Positions 1,406 through 20,322 of a stretch of DNA of 22,456 bases are shown one piece after another (positions within the stretch are counted from its first letter, which is position 1; each line of letters starts with the position of its first letter). Where the stretch lies: the IMG/VR virus record IMGVR_UViG_3300042893_002189, positions 1-22,456 of that record; one strand, written 5' to 3'. Made by a program: the position numbers and the translations under genes. Below the pieces are notes generated by a model. The model ran no database searches. It saw only the letters and a program-made list of their open reading frames with translations, and was not told where the DNA came from. Origin of the DNA: a virus.

Positions 1406-3229
1406 TTATTTGTATTGTTGGTTAACCATCTCTCGATGGAGTCTATCTGAACCAAGTTGTCTTAAAGCTCTTATGTTGTCCACGTTGTTTTGATTCTTGT
1501 ATATTTCTTTTGGTGTATAGAATGTAGCATCCGTTAACACAACAAAGTATTGTGCATACCCTGCTGGCTGTTTGGCAATTGATTCGATCGTTACATTACC
1601 AGCTGCCTCATTGTTCTGTACGTTACTTTTAACATTACCTTCTTGCTGTCCCTGGCTTGTTTGTGCAATAACAGGTTTTGCATCCATTGCATTCTCTAAA
1701 ACACCTTTGTTGCCAAACTTTATTCCTTCTATGGGTGGAAGTTCTATTTGACTCGATGATGCTCTGTTGGGAGAGTATAGATTGTAAGACACTGATGGTG
1801 TATATGTGGCCACAACAGCTTCTTGTCTCGTACCAGCTTGATTGGTTCTCGTCTGCTGTGAGCTTGTGGTAGAACTAAAGCTCTCGATCTGAGTCCCAAC
1901 ATTGGTGTTGGTTGATAGTTGTTGTCTACTTGCGTTTGATCCTGTGAGGCCTTGAGTGTTACCTTGCATCGATAATCCAGAACCTTGATTTTGCATGAAC
2001 GAGGATTGTGTAGTAGAAGCCACGGAACCACTTGCTGTACCTGAACCGCTATTAGCAATACTTTGTGATTGAGTATCACCAGCTATCTTCTCCGCTTGCT
2101 GCTTTGCTGTCTCACCAGCTGAGAACGCTTGAGCATCTGCAGCTTGAACCACAGACTTTTCTAACGCACTTGTCTTATCTTGATTAGAGCTAATCATACT
2201 AAGAGCCTGTGACAGAGAAACACCCGAAGACGGTTTTGTTGATCCACCCGAATCAGCCACCTCACCAACTTTAGGTTGTGCACCACCAGGACTAGGTTGC
2301 ATTGCTGCTTGTTGCTGACCTGGACCGGGTGTAGGAGCTCCGGGTGGTGGAGGAGATCCTGCTTGCTGTTGTAGTTGTGACTCTGGTTGAGGAGGTGGTA
2401 GACCAGCAGGCAATGGAGCTGCGCTGAATGTTCCTGTTGGTGTTATGGTAACACTTTCAACACTGAGCTGAGTTCCTATTGGGGTTGTTGTCTCCATAGG
2501 TGTACTTGCTACATTCTTTGGTATAAGTTTAGCTAGCGCATCGTTATACCCAGCACAAGAAGGACTAGACAACACATTTGTAGAACAGGGATCGACACTG
2601 TACTTCAAACTAAAACGCGTATCTGTGATCTCTGGTCCATAGGGACCCATCCAATAATTGTTATCTCGACCTATAAAACCATACTTAGCGTTACCCAATC
2701 CAGGGACCCCGTATGGAGTTGTAAACGTTTCGGAGAAGCTGAACTGTGTCCAATTGTATCTTCTGTTTAGATCATAATTATATGATTCGAGTATCTTTGA
2801 GTTTGTGTTGTTGTAAATGTTAACATAGGCCATTAAGTAATCTTGTCTGCCATCATCCCAGCCATTTCCATTCTTAGCCATAAAACTAAAGTTAAAACCA
2901 CTAACCTGTAAGCCCGTACCAGAATTAGGTAAGGCATTTTTAATGTTAACAATTTGATTAAGATCAGTCAACCCGTATGAGAAGTTAATTATGTTCGATC
3001 CCATGCCCCAAACGGCAACGCGCGGTAGAGGACCACAGTACCCAGGATCACCACCCCCCCAGCAGCTCAAAGGCTGACCAATCGAACCAGCATTCTGCCA
3101 CGTAGATGTAACAGAACTAGACTGACTGGTGAAATTTACTAGGTTACCAGTTACATCCTGCGCATTAGAAAAGCTTGTGGGCAATAATGCCAAACAAAGC
3201 ACCAATGCCAATGTTCTTAACAGTTTCAT
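1406..3229 (-). CDS. Secreted multi-segment protein with Pro/Gln-rich linker, 607 aa
   Basis: Residues 1-23 are a textbook Sec signal peptide (MKLLRTLALVLCLALLPTSF, cleavage probably SNA|QD). Residues about 25-235 form a Trp/Tyr/Gly/Asn-rich, beta-looking domain with two Cys pairs: C56/C65 (CWGGGDPGYC) and C215/C225 (DPCSTNVLSSPSC). These would suit disulphides in the periplasm. Residues about 270-320 are a Pro/Gln/Gly linker (GLPPPQPESQ, SPPPPGAPTPGPG). Residues 330-510 are low-complexity Ser/Gln/Thr/Asn. The C-terminus (about 560-607) is more ordered and looks conserved (VVLTDATFYTPKEIY, LRQLGSDRLHREMVNQQY). The ATG lies inside the 3' end of the upstream gene, with only a weak Shine-Dalgarno (GGAT), so translation is probably coupled. 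I do not recognise a family; an exported or surface-linked role during infection is inferred. Confidence 0.85.
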   Translation of the reverse strand: MKLLRTLALVLCLALLPTSFSNAQDVTGNLVNFTSQSSSVTSTWQNAGSIGQPLSCWGGGDPGYCGPLPRVAVWGMGSNIINFSYGLTDLNQIVNIKNALPNSGTGLQVSGFNFSFMAKNGNGWDDGRQDYLMAYVNIYNNTNSKILESYNYDLNRRYNWTQFSFSETFTTPYGVPGLGNAKYGFIGRDNNYWMGPYGPEITDTRFSLKYSVDPCSTNVLSSPSCAGYNDALAKLIPKNVASTPMETTTPIGTQLSVESVTITPTGTFSAAPLPAGLPPPQPESQLQQQAGSPPPPGAPTPGPGQQQAAMQPSPGGAQPKVGEVADSGGSTKPSSGVSLSQALSMISSNQDKTSALEKSVVQAADAQAFSAGETAKQQAEKIAGDTQSQSIANSGSGTASGSVASTTQSSFMQNQGSGLSMQGNTQGLTGSNASRQQLSTNTNVGTQIESFSSTTSSQQTRTNQAGTRQEAVVATYTPSVSYNLYSPNRASSSQIELPPIEGIKFGNKGVLENAMDAKPVIAQTSQGQQEGNVKSNVQNNEAAGNVTIESIAKQPAGYAQYFVVLTDATFYTPKEIYKNQNNVDNIRALRQLGSDRLHREMVNQQYK

Positions 3230-4367
3230 TTTTATCCATTTTCTCTAATTGTGGTATCTTTTGTGGATTTGATTCCCAGGCCAGTTTGGCTTGCTCACCA
3301 ATCTTACCTTCGTATGGGCAAGGTGTACCTGCTGCCAACATAGCGTCAAACACACGACGGTCCTGGCACATAGCTGCAACGGCCGCCACTTTCATTCCCA
3401 TATCATACAAAGTCTTGGATAACTTCAATCGTTCACAATTCATATCACGGATAGTTCCACCACTCGATACACCAAAGATCTGCGTTTGTACAGAACCAGA
3501 TGAACCCGTAGAGCACAAGTCAGCATTACCACCACTCATCATTGCAGGAGCAACAGCTGTAGGAGGTGGTTGAATAACCCTTTGAGTGATTGTTGTTTCG
3601 TTTATATTACGATTTGTCATATCACCTGTCTGTACATTTTGGTTTACAGATGTGCTTTGATTGACATTGTTGTTTACGTTTGTTGATGTTGACGCTGATG
3701 TATTGATATTGCGGTTTGTCATATCACCGCTGTTTACATTGTTGTTAGTCGATGTACTGATGTTATTGTTATTGCTTACTGATACATTGGCGTTATTGTT
3801 GTTGTATGTCATCGTACCAGTGTTCTCATTCTTATTAACACTTGTTGATGAGCTCGAGCTGTTGTTGTTATTGTTAAATGTCTGAGTACCGCTATTGACG
3901 TTATTGTTTGTGTTTACGTTTGTACTTGTTGATGTGTTGACGTTATTATTATTGTTTGTCATTGTACCGGAGTTGACATTATTGTTGTTATATGTCATAG
4001 TACCAGAGTTGACGTTGTTATTGTTAAGTGTTTGAGTACCGCTGTTCACGTTGTTATTTGTATTGACAGATGTGCTTGTGCTGGTACTAGCGTTGTTGTT
4101 AGTGTTGAGAGAAGTACTATTAACTGTTGAGTTGCTCGTAGCATTGCTGTTACTTGTTGCAGTACTATTACTGTTAACAGTACTGACGCTGTTGGATGTA
4201 CTATTAGTATCGACGAGCGACTTACTATCGTATGTACCTTGATTGATTAGTGTTGTAGTACCTGTCGACGTACCGCCGGTTGTACTAGTTGTGCCGGTTG
4301 TTTGTGCAAACGCACTACAAGCTGCCATAACAGAAAGTAGCAGCGCTGCTATCTTTTTGCGATTCAT
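3165..4367 (-). CDS. Secreted Asn/Ser/Thr-repeat protein with C-terminal Cys domain, 400 aa
   Basis: This is the first gene of the minus-strand cassette, with a good Shine-Dalgarno (AAGGAA) before the ATG. Residues 1-21 are a signal peptide (MNRKKIAALLLSVMAACSAFA). Cleavage AFA|Q looks best; MAAC is a poor lipobox, so a lipoprotein is possible but less likely. Residues 22-260 are almost purely Thr, Ser, Asn, Gly and Val, with repeats of about 12 residues such as NNNNVNSGTMTY and NNNNVNSGTQTL. A Pro-rich hinge (IQPPPTAVAP) leads to a compact domain at 285-380 with four cysteines (C285, C311, C334, C350). That domain contains TIRDMNCERLKLSKTLYDMG and AAGTPCPYEGKIG. The last 20 residues are hydrophobic (NIGIGALFGIIAHKLF) and may insert into a membrane. 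The repeats could form a beta-solenoid or amyloid-like fibre; they do not match the curlin repeat pattern. Function unknown. Confidence 0.85.
   Translation of the reverse strand: MNRKKIAALLLSVMAACSAFAQTTGTTSTTGGTSTGTTTLINQGTYDSKSLVDTNSTSNSVSTVNSNSTATSNSNATSNSTVNSTSLNTNNNASTSTSTSVNTNNNVNSGTQTLNNNNVNSGTMTYNNNNVNSGTMTNNNNNVNTSTSTNVNTNNNVNSGTQTFNNNNNSSSSSTSVNKNENTGTMTYNNNNANVSVSNNNNISTSTNNNVNSGDMTNRNINTSASTSTNVNNNVNQSTSVNQNVQTGDMTNRNINETTITQRVIQPPPTAVAPAMMSGGNADLCSTGSSGSVQTQIFGVSSGGTIRDMNCERLKLSKTLYDMGMKVAAVAAMCQDRRVFDAMLAAGTPCPYEGKIGEQAKLAWESNPQKIPQLEKMDKNETVKNIGIGALFGIIAHKLF
3594..4106 (-). repeat. Degenerate tandem repeats encoding Asn/Thr/Ser-rich segment
   Basis: This part of the 400-residue gene codes for residues about 88-258. 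Units of roughly 36 bp encode variants of NNN(N)VNSGT(M/Q)T(Y/F/L/N), interspersed with TSTST and SVSNNNN blocks. At DNA level the copies differ at many third codon positions (GTTGACGTT, GTTGACATT, GTTCACGTT and so on), while the protein pattern is kept. This suggests old expansions held by selection on the protein rather than a recent duplication. On the opposite strand the same bases give long Leu/Val-rich open frames, which are artefacts. Confidence 0.75.
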
Positions 4368-7221: not shown

Positions 7222-7950
7222 ATGGAAAACTTTAGCACATTTTCTGAAGCGGCTGTCAAAACAACGCTTCAATACCACCGCACACTCAATCCCAAGCTAT
7301 GGACTAACCAAAGGCTAGACACGAATGTTCGTTCAAAGCTTTTGGAGATTGCTCGTGTGTGGACTAAGTTTGCAAATATCGAGAACAACAACATCATTGA
7401 CATTGTTCTGACTGGTGGTAATGCCAATTACAATTACACAAAGCAATCAGACCTTGACGTTCATATCATTATCGATTATGATAAGGTCAGTTGCGATGAT
7501 GTTATTGTGATGGATTACTTCATGTCCAAGAAGTCGCTATGGGCTGCTAACCATACCAACATCCGTGTTAAGGGTTATCCCGTTGAGCTGTTTGCAGAAG
7601 ATAAGAGAGCAAAGCCACGTCCAGGTCAGGGTGTGTACTCTTTGTTAAAGAACCGGTGGAACCAGGAACCAAAACTTATTAGCATGAACTTTAAGAATGA
7701 TACCCTGCTGTCGCAGAAGGTTGAGTTCTACATGAAAGAGATTGATAATATGGTCAAGGGCAAGCAAAGTGTTGCTGCTGCCGGAAGTCTCAAGGATCGT
7801 CTGCGTATGATGCGCGGTGCTGCAATCCAACAAGGCGGAGAGTTCTCTTTTGAGAACCTCGTGTTCAAAGAGTTACGTAATCGTGGCTATATGGACAAAC
7901 TCGCCAACTATCTCAAGAGCAACAAAGAAAAGCAGTTGTCACTGCGCTAA
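7222..7950 (+). CDS. Nucleotidyltransferase-fold protein, 242 aa
   Basis: Pol-beta-type nucleotidyltransferase core: IVLTGGNANYNYTKQSDLDV at about 61-80, that is, the GG(N) loop followed by D77-x-D79, with a likely third acidic strand in GYPVELF near E122. These are the metal-binding carboxylates that transfer a nucleotide to an acceptor. The acceptor (RNA end, protein or small molecule) cannot be seen. Similar proteins occur in T4-like cyanophages as uncharacterised ORFs, from memory. The N-terminus MENFSTFSEA resembles the T4 capsid-targeting peptide (MKTYQEFIAEA), so packaging in the head is possible. The ATG sits directly after a hairpin that holds the Shine-Dalgarno. The 3' end contains the -35 box of the gp43 promoter. 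Confidence 0.8.
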   Translation: MENFSTFSEAAVKTTLQYHRTLNPKLWTNQRLDTNVRSKLLEIARVWTKFANIENNNIIDIVLTGGNANYNYTKQSDLDVHIIIDYDKVSCDDVIVMDYFMSKKSLWAANHTNIRVKGYPVELFAEDKRAKPRPGQGVYSLLKNRWNQEPKLISMNFKNDTLLSQKVEFYMKEIDNMVKGKQSVAAAGSLKDRLRMMRGAAIQQGGEFSFENLVFKELRNRGYMDKLANYLKSNKEKQLSLR

Positions 7951-15809: not shown

Positions 15810-16886
15810 ATGGCTACAACACTCGTATATAAACAAATTGCAGACGCTCTTAACTCAGTTTTGAGACCGTATAATTATCAAGTTGCTCCAAAAAACCCTT
15901 TGGGGGGAAAGCCGCGCGCTGGTGGATATACACGTGAATTCAGACTTCAGTTAATTAATACGCAAAAAGACACATCCGACCAGCTGGTTAAAGATGGTGT
16001 AAAGATAATTAAGAGTATTAAAGGTGACATTACAGGTGTTAAGTTCAATTCTCTTTCACCCAACAGTTCAAAATTCCCAAGTATTGAACTTGTTACTAAC
16101 AAAGAAAAAATAGATCTTGTTATTGCAAGAGGTGCAAACAAGGGAGAGAATTTTGAGAAGAATACTGTGACAAACCTCACGCAGTTTTTTGCACGTAAGG
16201 CTGGTGGTGGGGCATCGGAAACAATGGTGGATTTGATATCACAGCTTAATGAAACGAATAAAGATTTTGCAAAAGTTGATATTGCTAGCGTGAAACAACG
16301 CACCGGTTCAACGAAAAAAGAAGGTGTGCCAATAGAGAAGTTAGGTGCAATTATTGGTGATATTATTTTGACGGATAGGTCTAATAAGCAATGGTATTTG
16401 TCGTTAAAGGATATTAACGGATACACATTCAGTTCTTATTCGGGTGCTGCTACTCTTTTTGACTCGTATGGAGCGCTTCAACCTGATTCACGTGGCGCTG
16501 ACTTCTTAAGAGCGTTTGGTACAGATCTCAACCTTGTGCAGCAAGGATTTGATACACGTAATAATATTACAAGCTTTGGCCGCCCTAAACTTGTTACTGC
16601 AAGAGCTAATAAGTCTGCTCTTAAAGCTATATTTGAAAGAGCGTGGGGAATGAATTACTTTTATGTTAAGAGAGAGAGTAACGGGTGGCAAGTATTCTGG
16701 ATAGATAGAAAAAAACTTGACTCGCTTGTTAATAATATTGAAGTGTACGAAATCCGATACCCATCCGTATCATCAAAGCAAATTTCAATTTACTGTGGCA
16801 ACAATAATAAAAAATATCTGGTCGAAATCAGAAACTCAAAGCGCGGTGAGTATCCAAATGATATTAAAATAAAGATAACAAAATGA
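15810..16886 (+). CDS. Protein with possible PD-(D/E)xK nuclease-like core, 358 aa
   Basis: No family is recognised with confidence. Residues 105-130 contain ARGANKGENFEKNTVTNLTQ, a G-x-x-FE helix resembling the first helix of restriction-endonuclease-like folds. GDIILTD (183-189) followed by QWYLSLK (194-200) gives D...(S)xK, close to the PD-(D/E)xK active-site layout but with Ser in place of the usual acidic residue. The region is followed by a helical SYSGAATLFDSYG segment. The C-terminal third is beta-rich and basic (IRYPSVSSKQISIYCGNNNK), possibly nucleic-acid binding. The upstream late-type promoter and the ATGA overlap with the ligase-NMNAT gene suggest late expression. It could be a virion-linked nuclease or an inactive relative; the assignment is tentative. 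Confidence 0.75.
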   Translation: MATTLVYKQIADALNSVLRPYNYQVAPKNPLGGKPRAGGYTREFRLQLINTQKDTSDQLVKDGVKIIKSIKGDITGVKFNSLSPNSSKFPSIELVTNKEKIDLVIARGANKGENFEKNTVTNLTQFFARKAGGGASETMVDLISQLNETNKDFAKVDIASVKQRTGSTKKEGVPIEKLGAIIGDIILTDRSNKQWYLSLKDINGYTFSSYSGAATLFDSYGALQPDSRGADFLRAFGTDLNLVQQGFDTRNNITSFGRPKLVTARANKSALKAIFERAWGMNYFYVKRESNGWQVFWIDRKKLDSLVNNIEVYEIRYPSVSSKQISIYCGNNNKKYLVEIRNSKRGEYPNDIKIKITK

Positions 16887-18679
16887 TTGACTTCCATACA
16901 TTCTTAGCAGAAGCTGCTACATCAGAAGATAAGCTCCTCCATCTGGAGCATGCAGAAGACCATCCAATCAATGCTGGTGCAGAGGGTTATGCTCATGCTG
17001 CCAAGACCTTGCATTCGGTCCACCAGGCAATGACTGGTAGGTCCAAGGAAGCCAGTATTACAACGAAGTATGATGGTTCACCTTCAATTGTATTTGGCCA
17101 CCATCCAACAACTGGTAAGTTCTTTGTTGCATCTAAGTCTGCTTTCAATAAGAATCCAAAGCTAAACTACACACCAGAAGACATTGAGCAGAATCATGGT
17201 CATGCTCCTGGTCTTGTAGAGAAGCTCAAGCATGCCCTTAAACATCTGCCCAAAGTTGCACCCGATCAAGGTGTCTACCAGGGTGATGTAATGCACTCTG
17301 GTAACGATGTTAAGTCTAGTGGTGATGAGTATCACTTTAAGCCTAACACAATTACATATGGTGTTAAAAAGACTTCACCAGAAGGTCGTAAGATTGAGAA
17401 GTCTAAATTTGGATTAGTTGTTCATACCCAATACAAAGGCAAAGACTTTGAATCGATGAAGGCAACATTCAAGCCTGACCTGGATAAGTTTAATGAGCAT
17501 TCTGATGTTCATATGATCAACCCTGCCGTTGATCTATCAAAGAGTGCGTTTGATTCTAAAACGTCTACTGAGTTTGAAAAACATATGGCTGCTGCTGATC
17601 GATCTCATCAAGAGATAGCGAAAGCTAATGGCTATGACAGAATACTTAAACATTCCGAACATCTTAAAACTTACATTAACAAGACTGTTCGTGACGGCTC
17701 CACACCCAGCGTTGAGGGGTATAAAGCACACATTACCGAAAGAGGTCAGAAGGATGTCGATAAGTTAAAGACACCAGCCGGAAAAGCAACAAGACAAAAA
17801 GCACTTGACTTAGCTCTTAAACAAGTAGATCAAGATAAAAAGCATTTGAAGGGTGCTTTGGAGCTACATGGTCATTTACAAAGAGCAAAGAACTCTCTTA
17901 TCAATGCTATCGAGCCTGCTGTCAAAGGTGACTATACCACATACAAGACAAGTGCAGAAGGTAAACTTGAACCAACGAAGAGTGAGGGGTCTGTTGTAAC
18001 GGTTGGCGGCCGTACTACTAAGCTCGTTGATCGAAAAGACTTCAGTGCAGCCAATTTTATTAATCGTCCACGTCCTGGTGATAAGCCTAAAGAAGAGCAA
18101 CCAAAAGAAAAGCACTTTGTGTTGGCATATGCACGAATGAACCCTCCTCATGAAGGTCATGGGAAGGTGATTAAGAAGGTTAAGTCGATTGCAGAGAAGG
18201 TTGGTGGCGAGCATCAGGTTGTACTTTCTGCCTCACAGGATGCGAAGAAGAATCCATTATCTGCCGCTCAAAAAGTCAAGCATGCAAAGCGTGCTTTTAG
18301 TGATACAAACATATCGGCTGCAACAGAGACAGCTCCTACGATCCTCCATCAGGCAGCTAAATTAGCTAAGCAGGGTGTTCAGCATCTCCATATCGTTGCT
18401 GGATCCGATCGAAAAGAGGAAATGGAAGCTTTACTGAACAAATACAACGGTGTAGAATCAAAGCATGGTACATACAACTTCAAGTCAATCACAGTTCACT
18501 CATCTGGTGAGCGGGATCCTGATTCTGAAGGAACAGAAGGTATGTCAGCATCGAAGATACGTGAACATGCAAAGAGTGGAAACTTCACTGAGTTCAAAAA
18601 AGGAACACCATCCGGAATGACACTGAAGCATAAGGAAGAATTATACAATGATGTCCGTAAAGGTATGAACCTTAAATAA
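16883..18679 (+). CDS. Fusion of KxDG ligase-type and HxGH NMN-adenylyltransferase-like domains
   Basis: 598 aa. Residues 1-11 (MIDFHTFLAEA) resemble the T4 capsid-targeting peptide with a gp21-type cleavage site (LAE|A). The N-terminal domain carries nucleic-acid-ligase motifs: I at K62-YDG (TTKYDGSPSIVF), a motif III-like QGVYQGDVM (129-137), KFGLVVHTQYKG (175-186), IV at EGSVV (368-372) and a motif V-like TTKLVDR (378-384). A long charged helical insertion (about 190-360) separates the motifs. The C-terminal domain is a cytidylyltransferase/NMNAT-type Rossmann fold: HFVLAYARMNPPHEGHGKVI (411-430) with HxGH at 423-426, HIVAGSDR (503-510) and SASKIR (555-560). I recall related phage proteins catalogued as DUF6267. 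The ligase lysine could accept AMP from ATP or NAD; the second domain could make NAD from NMN. The actual substrate is unknown. The start overlaps the upstream stop (ATGA). Confidence 0.85.
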   Translation: MIDFHTFLAEAATSEDKLLHLEHAEDHPINAGAEGYAHAAKTLHSVHQAMTGRSKEASITTKYDGSPSIVFGHHPTTGKFFVASKSAFNKNPKLNYTPEDIEQNHGHAPGLVEKLKHALKHLPKVAPDQGVYQGDVMHSGNDVKSSGDEYHFKPNTITYGVKKTSPEGRKIEKSKFGLVVHTQYKGKDFESMKATFKPDLDKFNEHSDVHMINPAVDLSKSAFDSKTSTEFEKHMAAADRSHQEIAKANGYDRILKHSEHLKTYINKTVRDGSTPSVEGYKAHITERGQKDVDKLKTPAGKATRQKALDLALKQVDQDKKHLKGALELHGHLQRAKNSLINAIEPAVKGDYTTYKTSAEGKLEPTKSEGSVVTVGGRTTKLVDRKDFSAANFINRPRPGDKPKEEQPKEKHFVLAYARMNPPHEGHGKVIKKVKSIAEKVGGEHQVVLSASQDAKKNPLSAAQKVKHAKRAFSDTNISAATETAPTILHQAAKLAKQGVQHLHIVAGSDRKEEMEALLNKYNGVESKHGTYNFKSITVHSSGERDPDSEGTEGMSASKIREHAKSGNFTEFKKGTPSGMTLKHKEELYNDVRKGMNLK

Positions 18680-18744: not shown

Positions 18745-20322
18745 ATGACAGACAAATTAAAAGATCAAACATCGGGCATGCCTGCCGCTACCGATGATGG
18801 TAAGAAGCTTACCGTAAAAAAGACAAGTGGCAAAACACAAGTAATCATTAACCCGCCTGAAAAAGTTCAGCGTGATGCTAATGAATCATTCAAACAAGCT
18901 CTTTCAAAGCACACCGTTGTGCTCGAGAAAAAGATTGAGCTCGTTCTCCAAGGAAAATCTCAGCGTAGTGAATTACCCGAAGAAACTCTTCGTCAGGTAT
19001 TCATTCGTGGTTTCAAATCACTCCCCCTCAATACAGAACTGACCCGTGAACAGTATGCGATGAACCGCGTCAACTCGTTTATGGCTGGTGGTGCTGCTAT
19101 GAAAGAAGACTTCGACCTGATTCCTGTGATGGAACGGTTGGGTATGAAGGGTACCGGTGGTGCTCGCCGTCCTCACATTAAACGCGAAAAGAGCCCATAC
19201 AACGGTAAGACTATCTTCCACGTAGTAGATGCAAAGGGTCGCGTTAAGCATTCCACGGGTGATGAGGGTGAAGCAAAACAACATTTAGCAACCAAATATA
19301 ATTCCTATATGGAAAGTACTCTGAGTCCTATGAAAAGATTCGAAGGAACAAAGAGTCTGGTTAAGACATATAAAGGCGACACTCCCGGTGAGAAGCTCAA
19401 AGAAGGTAAAATGAGCGACTTGGATATCGATATGAAGGATATGAAGGATAAAGACTTCGAGACTCATTATGGTAAGCCTAAGGCCGCATACGTTCCTAAG
19501 AAGAAACCAGAACCAGCTAAGCCTGCTAATGTTAAAGAAGCTAAGGATGTTAGGGAGTATGGTTACGAAGGTGACATGGCGATGAGCCAATTGAAGTCTA
19601 TTAGCCGTAATGCTGATCATCTTTGTGGTATGATGAAACCTGATACAGACTTACCTGAGTGGGTCCAATCAAAGATAACATTAGCTCAAGATTACATGCA
19701 AACTGCTCACGATTATATGATGACCGAGATGAATGAAGAACTGGCCACAGATAAGCAAGTTAAAATGGCTATTGGTATTGCTAACGACAAAAGATATGCT
19801 GGTGGTAACATGACAGGTGCTGTGAAAGTCATGGATAAAATTAAAAAAGGTTTAGCTAACCATCCTAAAGTTCAAGGTGCTTTGAAGAAAGCAAACGAGC
19901 AAGTAGAACCAATTGAAGAATTAAAATCCTCTACTTTAACATCTTACATTGATAAAGTTGCAACTGGTCCATCCAGAGGCAAGACACAAACTGGTTTGCT
20001 CAAAAGTATTAAAGCGATTGGTGGTGTAACAAAAGCTATCCGTAAGAGATCTGAAAATGATATCAAGGAAGATACAGTGAATGAAGTTAGTAAAGGTATG
20101 GCTCACAACTACATGGTAGCAGCACATAAAAAGTATGGCCAATTGGATCATAAAAATGATGTAGAGTCCAATGCCAAGAAAGCTAAACTAATCAAAGGTA
20201 TTAAGAAGGCTTCTGATAGACGTAATCCAAAGCCAGCTCCATCTCCTGAACCCAAAGTTGACATGAGTTCTCCTGGTGCTTATTATGCCAGCAAAAAACC
20301 TGGCCAGTATACAGGAGATTGA
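18745..20322 (+). CDS. Modular virion/prohead-like protein, 525 aa
   Basis: Lys-rich, Pro-containing protein made of short helical modules, no signal peptide or membrane segment. Modules I recognise as recurrent in marine T4-like phage structural proteins: SDLDIDMKDMKDKDFETHYG (224-243); EYGYEGDMAMSQLKSISRNA (271-290) continuing through LPEWVQSKITLAQDYMQTAH; DKQVKMAIGIANDKRYAGGN (336-355); and LTSYIDKVATGPSRGK (398-413). A helical AHNYMVAAHKKYGQLDHK segment lies near the C-terminus, which ends in a Pro/Tyr-rich tail. The exact role is unknown; prohead core, scaffold or packaged protein are the likely options. It follows a strong late promoter and is the first gene of a close-packed block with fibre- and Dps-like genes. 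Confidence 0.8.
   Translation: MTDKLKDQTSGMPAATDDGKKLTVKKTSGKTQVIINPPEKVQRDANESFKQALSKHTVVLEKKIELVLQGKSQRSELPEETLRQVFIRGFKSLPLNTELTREQYAMNRVNSFMAGGAAMKEDFDLIPVMERLGMKGTGGARRPHIKREKSPYNGKTIFHVVDAKGRVKHSTGDEGEAKQHLATKYNSYMESTLSPMKRFEGTKSLVKTYKGDTPGEKLKEGKMSDLDIDMKDMKDKDFETHYGKPKAAYVPKKKPEPAKPANVKEAKDVREYGYEGDMAMSQLKSISRNADHLCGMMKPDTDLPEWVQSKITLAQDYMQTAHDYMMTEMNEELATDKQVKMAIGIANDKRYAGGNMTGAVKVMDKIKKGLANHPKVQGALKKANEQVEPIEELKSSTLTSYIDKVATGPSRGKTQTGLLKSIKAIGGVTKAIRKRSENDIKEDTVNEVSKGMAHNYMVAAHKKYGQLDHKNDVESNAKKAKLIKGIKKASDRRNPKPAPSPEPKVDMSSPGAYYASKKPGQYTGD

Follow-up and report, generated by a model that had tools for sequence, protein, structure and literature searches.

A leader-bearing fusion gene in a T4-like phage contig

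The window examined here is the whole of a 22,456-base viral contig from a T4-like aquatic phage (IMG/VR record IMGVR_UViG_3300042893_002189). Positions 16883–18679 of its plus strand, to which all coordinates below refer unless stated otherwise, form a single stop-free open reading frame (ORF) encoding 598 amino acids. Genes for a family-B DNA polymerase, a RecA/UvsX-type recombinase, a DnaB-type helicase, Hsp20, a dCMP deaminase and a 2OG-Fe(II) oxygenase surround it. By ORF calling, Pfam and PHROGs the product consists of a short leader, a ligase-like DUF6267 domain and a domain resembling nicotinamide mononucleotide (NMN) adenylyltransferase (NMNAT). Pfam places DUF6267 (PF19782) at residues 19–393 (16937–18061; E 6.8e-93, 312 bits against a curated cut-off of 27) and CTP_transf_like at residues 418–561 (E 7.8e-6); the translation shows a charged linker in between (residues 394–411, 18062–18115). 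The matching PHROGs are 455 (unknown) and 3041/395 (cytidyltransferase). All motifs that an initial annotation had read from this ORF are present, namely K62-YDG, EGSVV, K380, HxGH, GSDR, SASKIR and the N-terminal MIDFHTFLAE|A.

We found 558 phage records that match the family, with T4-like cyanophages in the majority. As a rule, annotated relatives encode the two halves as separate genes lying side by side, T4-GC_71 and T4-GC_190, flanked on one side by polymerase, UvsX and gp41 genes and on the other by head-annotated genes, gp61 (primase) and nrdA. The fusion exists in the window, in S-PM2 record LN828717 (591 amino acids) and in several other IMG/VR contigs (L014–L016, which are about 70% identical to the window protein, L031, L043, L044, L046 and L051). 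The pairing that had struck the initial annotation is a fusion, and we can reject the idea that it is unique to the window phage: it joins two genes that adjoin in many T4-like marine phages. The T4-like cyanophages share with the window the two families (DUF6267/T4-GC_71/PHROG 455 and T4-GC_190/PHROGs 3041 and 395), their order and their replication-gene setting, but they usually keep two genes and, where they have the leader, carry it on the cytidyltransferase instead of on DUF6267. A literature search found no paper that mentions DUF6267, and the PADLOC defence models gave no match. This family had no function assigned before, and its ligase-like assignment is new.

Some records of the family are inconsistent. 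The older S-PM2 record, NC_006820 (L013), has two separate genes where LN828717 (L133) has the fused one, suggesting that the gene is really split or that a frameshift error occurred. The fusion of Synechococcus phage metaG-MbCM1 (JN371769/NC_019443; BFVD H8ZNG8) is labelled "NrdB ribonucleotide reductase A subunit", apparently a misannotation; in related records the cytidyltransferase bears the label "ribonucleotide reductase A". Matches in genome collections probably represent phage contigs binned with their hosts, as contig titles and the phage families present there disfavour a cellular origin. DUF6267 also lies on a 188-kb contig in the isolate assembly of Nonlabens xiamenensis 1Q3 (L165). 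Since this genome also encodes a gp21-type protease, the isolate may harbour a T4-like phage.

The first ten residues of the window protein, MIDFHTFLAE (16883–16912), resemble a capsid-targeting leader with a predicted prohead-protease cut after E10, as judged from its register and its enrichment. For the T4 internal protein IPIII, ten N-terminal residues are enough for packaging, with positions 4 and 7 serving targeting and positions 8 and 10 processing, and gp21 cleaves after L/I-x-E (PMC9026906). The IPIII N-terminus (MKTYQEFIAE|A) and that of the window protein agree in residue classes and register, including an aromatic residue at positions 4 and 7 (F4 and F7), L or I at position 8 (L8) and E at position 10 (E10). 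The initial annotation had assigned the MKTYQEFIAEA-type peptide to Alt; this was wrong, because it is the leader of IPIII, and the propeptide of Alt has 7 residues (PMC9026906).

In the fetched loci, a sample biased by its selection for DUF6267, a strict leader pattern occurred 114 times near ORF starts and at only 3 of 5563 internal methionines; for the IMG/VR loci the counts at ATGs near ORF starts were 85/1430 on the plus strand and 0/136 on the minus strand. The DUF6267 gene is the sole clear leader carrier in the complete 168-kb genome of DLP6. In Melnitz-3 the only leader match at an ATG start is the gene coupled upstream of DUF6267, and DUF6267 itself, which starts there with TTG, has the leader too. 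Independently fetched genome contigs carry it on 15 of 33 DUF6267 genes, plus several near variants. Overall it is found on 48 of 66 DUF6267 genes, comprising most non-cyanophage members and the window, a recurrence far above chance. P-RSM6, Syn9, S-SM1 and S-SZBM1 have it on the neighbouring cytidyltransferase gene. All 14 complete relatives encode a gp21-type prohead protease (PF03420); the corresponding region lies outside the window fragment. Our literature search on cyanophages and capsid targeting returned no paper describing such leaders in cyanophages.

Evidence from virions points in the same direction. Published mass spectrometry studies report the T4-GC190 cytidyltransferase in virions of S-SM1 (PMC3037559), the cytidyltransferases of S-CREM2 (gp154) and S-SZBM1 (PMC10665884), and an NMNAT-type homolog in S-SCSM1 (PMC9602691). 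All four proteins start with the leader (S-SM1, MKKFSAFLNE|A; S-CREM2, MKNFSSFLTE|A; S-SCSM1, MKSFLQFLKE|A; S-SZBM1, MRFRQFIIE|A), and in S-SCSM1 the leader-bearing gene is the only match of the cytidyltransferase domain in the genome. The leader explains why "cytidyltransferases" have repeatedly been found in marine T4-like virions, and it provides a sequence rule by which injected proteins of such phages could be spotted. The capsid-targeting-like peptide and the packaging and injection proposed in the initial annotation are well supported by the leader register, the protease of the complete relatives and the detection of leader-bearing homologs in virions, and we regard the window leader as very probably a capsid-targeting sequence. 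The window protein shares with T4 IPI, IPII, IPIII and Alt the IPIII-type ten-residue leader, E10 before the cut and a gp21-type protease in its relatives. Unlike these internal proteins it is a much larger putative enzyme with unrelated domains, and its cleavage and packaging are predicted.

The same type of leader (MISFDQFLSE|K) also begins a kinase-like protein encoded near DUF6267 in S-CRM01 (L010:7661-10126). PMC10665884 cites a report of a protein kinase in S-CRM01 virions.

Ligase-type features of DUF6267

Conservation was assessed with 59 diverse IMG/VR homologs that are 34–78% identical to the window. Residues K62, D64, G65, K85, Q133, D135, Y159, E368, G369, K380 and R384 are unchanged in all of them. 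At least 97% identity is reached by only five of the domain's 48 Lys, two of its 26 Asp, two of its 25 Glu and one of its 12 Arg, most of which lie on ligase-type motifs. The candidate motif I is K62-YDG (17066–17077), with K62 as the predicted adenylylated lysine. K85 (17135–17137) occupies the position of Rnl2 R55, as placed by inspection against T4 Rnl2. A motif III-like Q133-G-D135 (17279–17287) sits on a long strand (residues 131–139 in the AF2 model) and was also assigned by inspection; Y159 (17357–17359), on strand 158–162, could be the aromatic residue of motif IIIa. E368-G-S-V371 (17984–17995), part of EGSVV 368–372, corresponds to motif IV (V in 58/59), and K380-LVD-R384 (18020–18034), assigned by inspection, is motif V-like. 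An N-terminal H20-LE-H23-xE25D26 (16940–16960; H20, H23 and E25 in 59/59, D26 in 56/59) is specific to this family. Between motifs IIIa and IV lies a helical insert (residues 225–348, 17555–17926) with invariant N266 and K336, which splits the ligase-like core of the AF2 model into two halves.

The AF2 model, built from the homolog alignment (pLDDT 91.5, pTM 0.89), runs in the order strand-K62-strand-strand-K85, helices, QGD strand, Y159 strand, helix, strand, EGxV strand and K380 strand, which we take to be shared by the Rnl2 adenylyltransferase domain. When this model was compared with the PDB, the top 17 matches were all DNA/RNA ligase or capping-enzyme entries, led by T4 Rnl2 (E 0.054). 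Among the predicted viral structures of BFVD the best match beyond its own family was a protein of Agrobacterium phage Atu_ph07 named RNA ligase (E 7.1e-4, probability 1.00), and several viral RNA ligases followed. The bridge to this protein is by structure alone, since a DUF6267 profile matched neither Atu_ph07 nor T4. Atu_ph07 contains a 324-residue gene (52163–53137) with a weak PF09414 match, whose length would suit the BFVD entry and which may encode it.

Several results weigh against a ligase assignment. No PDB match of the model falls below 0.001 and TM-scores are low. An hhalign comparison of DUF6267 with an eight-member Rnl2 alignment gave a probability of 3% in the wrong region, no better than column-shuffled controls; the Pfam scan of the domain gave no PF09414 match, and a direct sequence search against solved structures gave none either. 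Where ligases have E in motif III and K-x-K in motif V, the domain has D and a single invariant Lys. Finally, DLP6 and S-CRM01 also encode a classical DNA ligase (PF01068). Because of the negative profile comparison we describe DUF6267 as ligase-like in fold and motifs and do not place it in the Rnl2 family. With T4 Rnl2 and other covalent nucleotidyltransferases it shares the order of KxDG, basic residue, III, IIIa, EGxV and V as well as the best fold matches, whereas the helical insert of about 120 residues, the N-terminal HxxHxED, the deviations in motifs III and V and the missing profile match set it apart from Rnl2.

On balance, the ligase-type domain seen in the initial annotation is upheld by motif invariance and by the pattern of fold matches in both databases, but sequence profiles, the E-value of the best PDB match and the low TM-scores are not on its side. 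The predicted structure makes it probable that DUF6267 adopts a ligase-type superfamily fold. By model and motifs it looks like a remote covalent nucleotidyltransferase of the polynucleotide ligase/capping enzyme superfamily, and the chances that it acts on polynucleotide ends are about even. This assignment is directly testable, and the family it concerns is present in hundreds of T4-like phages, among them phages of the cyanobacteria that dominate the ocean. Known ligases are scarce in its carriers: among the 14 complete relatives PF01068 matched 2, and PF09414 (a search that detected T4 Rnl2 as control) and PF01653 matched none. Since 12 of these 14 phages have no recognised ligase, this ligase-like core gene could plausibly encode a ligase that has escaped recognition, and a ligase-type DUF6267 would explain the absence of a recognised one from most of them.

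The NMNAT-like domain

The second domain (residues 412–598, 18116–18676), modelled by AF2 with a pLDDT of 93.6, is recognised by Pfam and finds its best PDB matches in NadD/NMNAT. Seventeen of the 19 matches below 0.001 belong to this group and the other two are TmcAL, so the NMN-adenylyltransferase-type domain of the initial annotation is borne out by fold. Among 37 homologs R418, P421, P422, G425, H426, G507, D509, R510, S555, K558 and R560 are identical throughout. The family has near-invariant GRxNPP[T/H]xGH, GSDR and Sx[ST]KxR motifs, which in the window are H423-E-G-H426 (18149–18160; G and H in 37/37), GSDR 507–510 (18401–18412; S in 36/37) and SASKIR 555–560 (18545–18562). In 36 of the 37 relatives Thr replaces the first His of HxGH, and the preceding Gly, which opens GRxNPP[T/H]xGH, is Ala in the window.

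The model supports the conclusion that this domain folds like an NMN/nicotinic acid mononucleotide (NaMN) adenylyltransferase, and we consider the corresponding activity slightly more probable than not. The NMNAT equivalog models of NCBIfam match far below their cut-offs (PRK01153, 19 bits vs 127; TIGR01527, 15.6 vs 181), so that NMN specificity is a good guess and no finding. The HIGH-type fold, GRxNPP[T/H]xGH and SxSKxR link the domain to NadD/NMNAT and to phage NadM and NadR, but unlike these systems it scores below every NMNAT cut-off and lacks a Nudix or kinase partner. NadM was reported to be accompanied by NadV in every phage that has it (PMC9503650). We detected NadV (PF04095) in only 1 of the 14 complete relatives; the window, a 22-kb fragment, lies outside this count. 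Since NadV is missing from the other 13, ordinary phage salvage of nicotinamide adenine dinucleotide (NAD) is disfavoured. TmcAL, the tRNA-Met cytidine acetate ligase, also matches in fold (E 1.9e-4); it has other partner domains, and the sequence offers no evidence for tRNA acetylation.

How might such a protein be used? We propose, at roughly even odds, an enzyme that is packaged in the head and injected and that acts early in infection by sealing or adenylylating nucleic acid, together with its NMNAT-like partner domain. The ten leader residues would target the protein into the prohead, a T4-gp21-type protease would cut after E10, and the fusion protein would enter the cell with the phage DNA. 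There, K62 of DUF6267 would accept adenosine monophosphate (AMP), from ATP or NAD+, and hand it on to a 5'-phosphate, after which the break would be sealed; the substrate would most likely be RNA, for instance a tRNA under repair, or incoming DNA with nicks. The NMNAT-like domain would adenylylate NMN, NaMN or a similar mononucleotide and may contribute to this early task, either through synthesis of NAD+ or by recycling a nicotinamide nucleotide. Since the leader is present in the window's group, the enzyme is expected to act on entry; the best-supported use at that stage would be sealing of cleaved tRNA or nicked DNA. Three observations speak against packaging. The cyanophage proteins lack the leader and begin with MSKNTHLEH or similar; the authors of the virion studies allow that the cytidyltransferase may be carry-over; and the virion proteins named in excerpts of these studies do not include DUF6267. 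The excerpts mention no cleavage of the detected cytidyltransferases.

Among the alternatives, restoration of NAD is the least improbable, although we consider it unlikely. An early-delivered NMNAT-like domain would rebuild NAD+ when NADase defences or a collapse of the host deplete it, with DUF6267 as an accessory or regulatory part. The fold of the second domain agrees with this explanation. The rarity of NadV and the low scores of the NMNAT models do not, and the motif residues of DUF6267 are kept more strictly than expected for a passive domain. Somewhat less likely still, DUF6267 could be the missing replication ligase that joins Okazaki fragments and nicks, its packaging being secondary. 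The location of the gene between those for UvsX/gp41 helicase and gp61 primase, the lack of a known ligase in most relatives and the leaderless cyanophage proteins all fit this idea, but the leader on most other DUF6267 proteins would place the enzyme inside the head, LigA is available from the hosts, and DLP6 and S-CRM01 carry their classical ligase besides.

A variant of the packaged sealing enzyme would let DUF6267 take AMP from NAD+, so that NMN is released and the NMNAT domain can remake NAD+ from NMN and ATP. NAD use by the fusion protein is itself conjectural, as are the NAD synthesis and the action against NAD-depleting defences raised in the initial annotation, and we give this self-refuelling cycle little chance; if it were true, the injected enzyme could keep sealing RNA or DNA breaks while the NAD+ of the cell drains. 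Improbable as well is a head-assembly or DNA-condensing component that no longer uses its enzyme domains: the leader, the homologs in virions and the head-annotated neighbours in relatives would suit it, but 59 and 37 diverse homologs of the two domains, respectively, keep the catalytic-type residues without exception. Least probable is that the HIGH domain makes nucleoside diphosphate (NDP) sugars or another small-molecule adduct while DUF6267 transfers a nucleotide to a target other than nucleic acid, an idea in line with the cytidyltransferase annotation and with NDP-sugar synthesis proposed for cyanophage HIGH enzymes (PMC7824862), but not with fold neighbours that are NadD/NMNAT and TmcAL rather than sugar-phosphate cytidylyltransferases, nor with the absence of recognised sugar genes beside the fusion gene in the window.

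Neighbouring genes in the window

The fusion gene shares a 4-base ATGA overlap with the translationally coupled gene upstream (15810–16886), which contains a PD-(D/E/S/Q)xK-like stretch (DIILTDRSNKQWYLSLK) and has no Pfam match. Genes in this position usually end at or near the start of DUF6267 and are hypervariable; by phmmer the window copy matches none of 49 other upstream genes. The PD-(D/E/S/Q)xK-like pattern, defined after inspection of the same genes, occurs in 17 of 50 upstream genes and in 9 of 286 other ORFs (p 7e-10); besides the window copy, upstream genes were noted in L009, L015, L017, L022, L023, L086, L091 and L101. Pfam confirmed a nuclease-type reading in 1 of 10 upstream genes tested. 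Since the pattern was drawn post hoc and support from Pfam is this sparse, the nuclease reading is a lead only. It is possible, judging from these sequences, that a variable nuclease is paired with a conserved ligase-like gene. The existence of Rnl2 enzymes fused to HNH nucleases (PMC7824862) makes such a pairing less odd. If the fusion protein did regenerate its own NAD+, the upstream gene could be the attacking partner of a repair enzyme.

The downstream gene (18745–20322) shows weak similarity to DUF5824 (E 0.01, below cut-off; E 1e-18 in L004). In HTVC008M this domain forms the C-terminal part of the cytidyltransferase gene, and the domains of this cassette are therefore shuffled.

On the minus strand, a repetitive ORF that is strongly enriched in N, S and T and begins like a signal peptide (3165–4367) adjoins a large signal-peptide-like ORF (1406–3229); neither shows a family beyond weak PHROG matches. 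RNA-ligase-associated Pol-beta enzymes (RlaP) occur in jumbo phages. The window has a Pol-beta-type nucleotidyltransferase-like ORF (7222–7950; PF01909 E 0.0022, PHROG 36119) that gave no RlaP match and resembles an S-CRM01 gene (L010:12197-12925).

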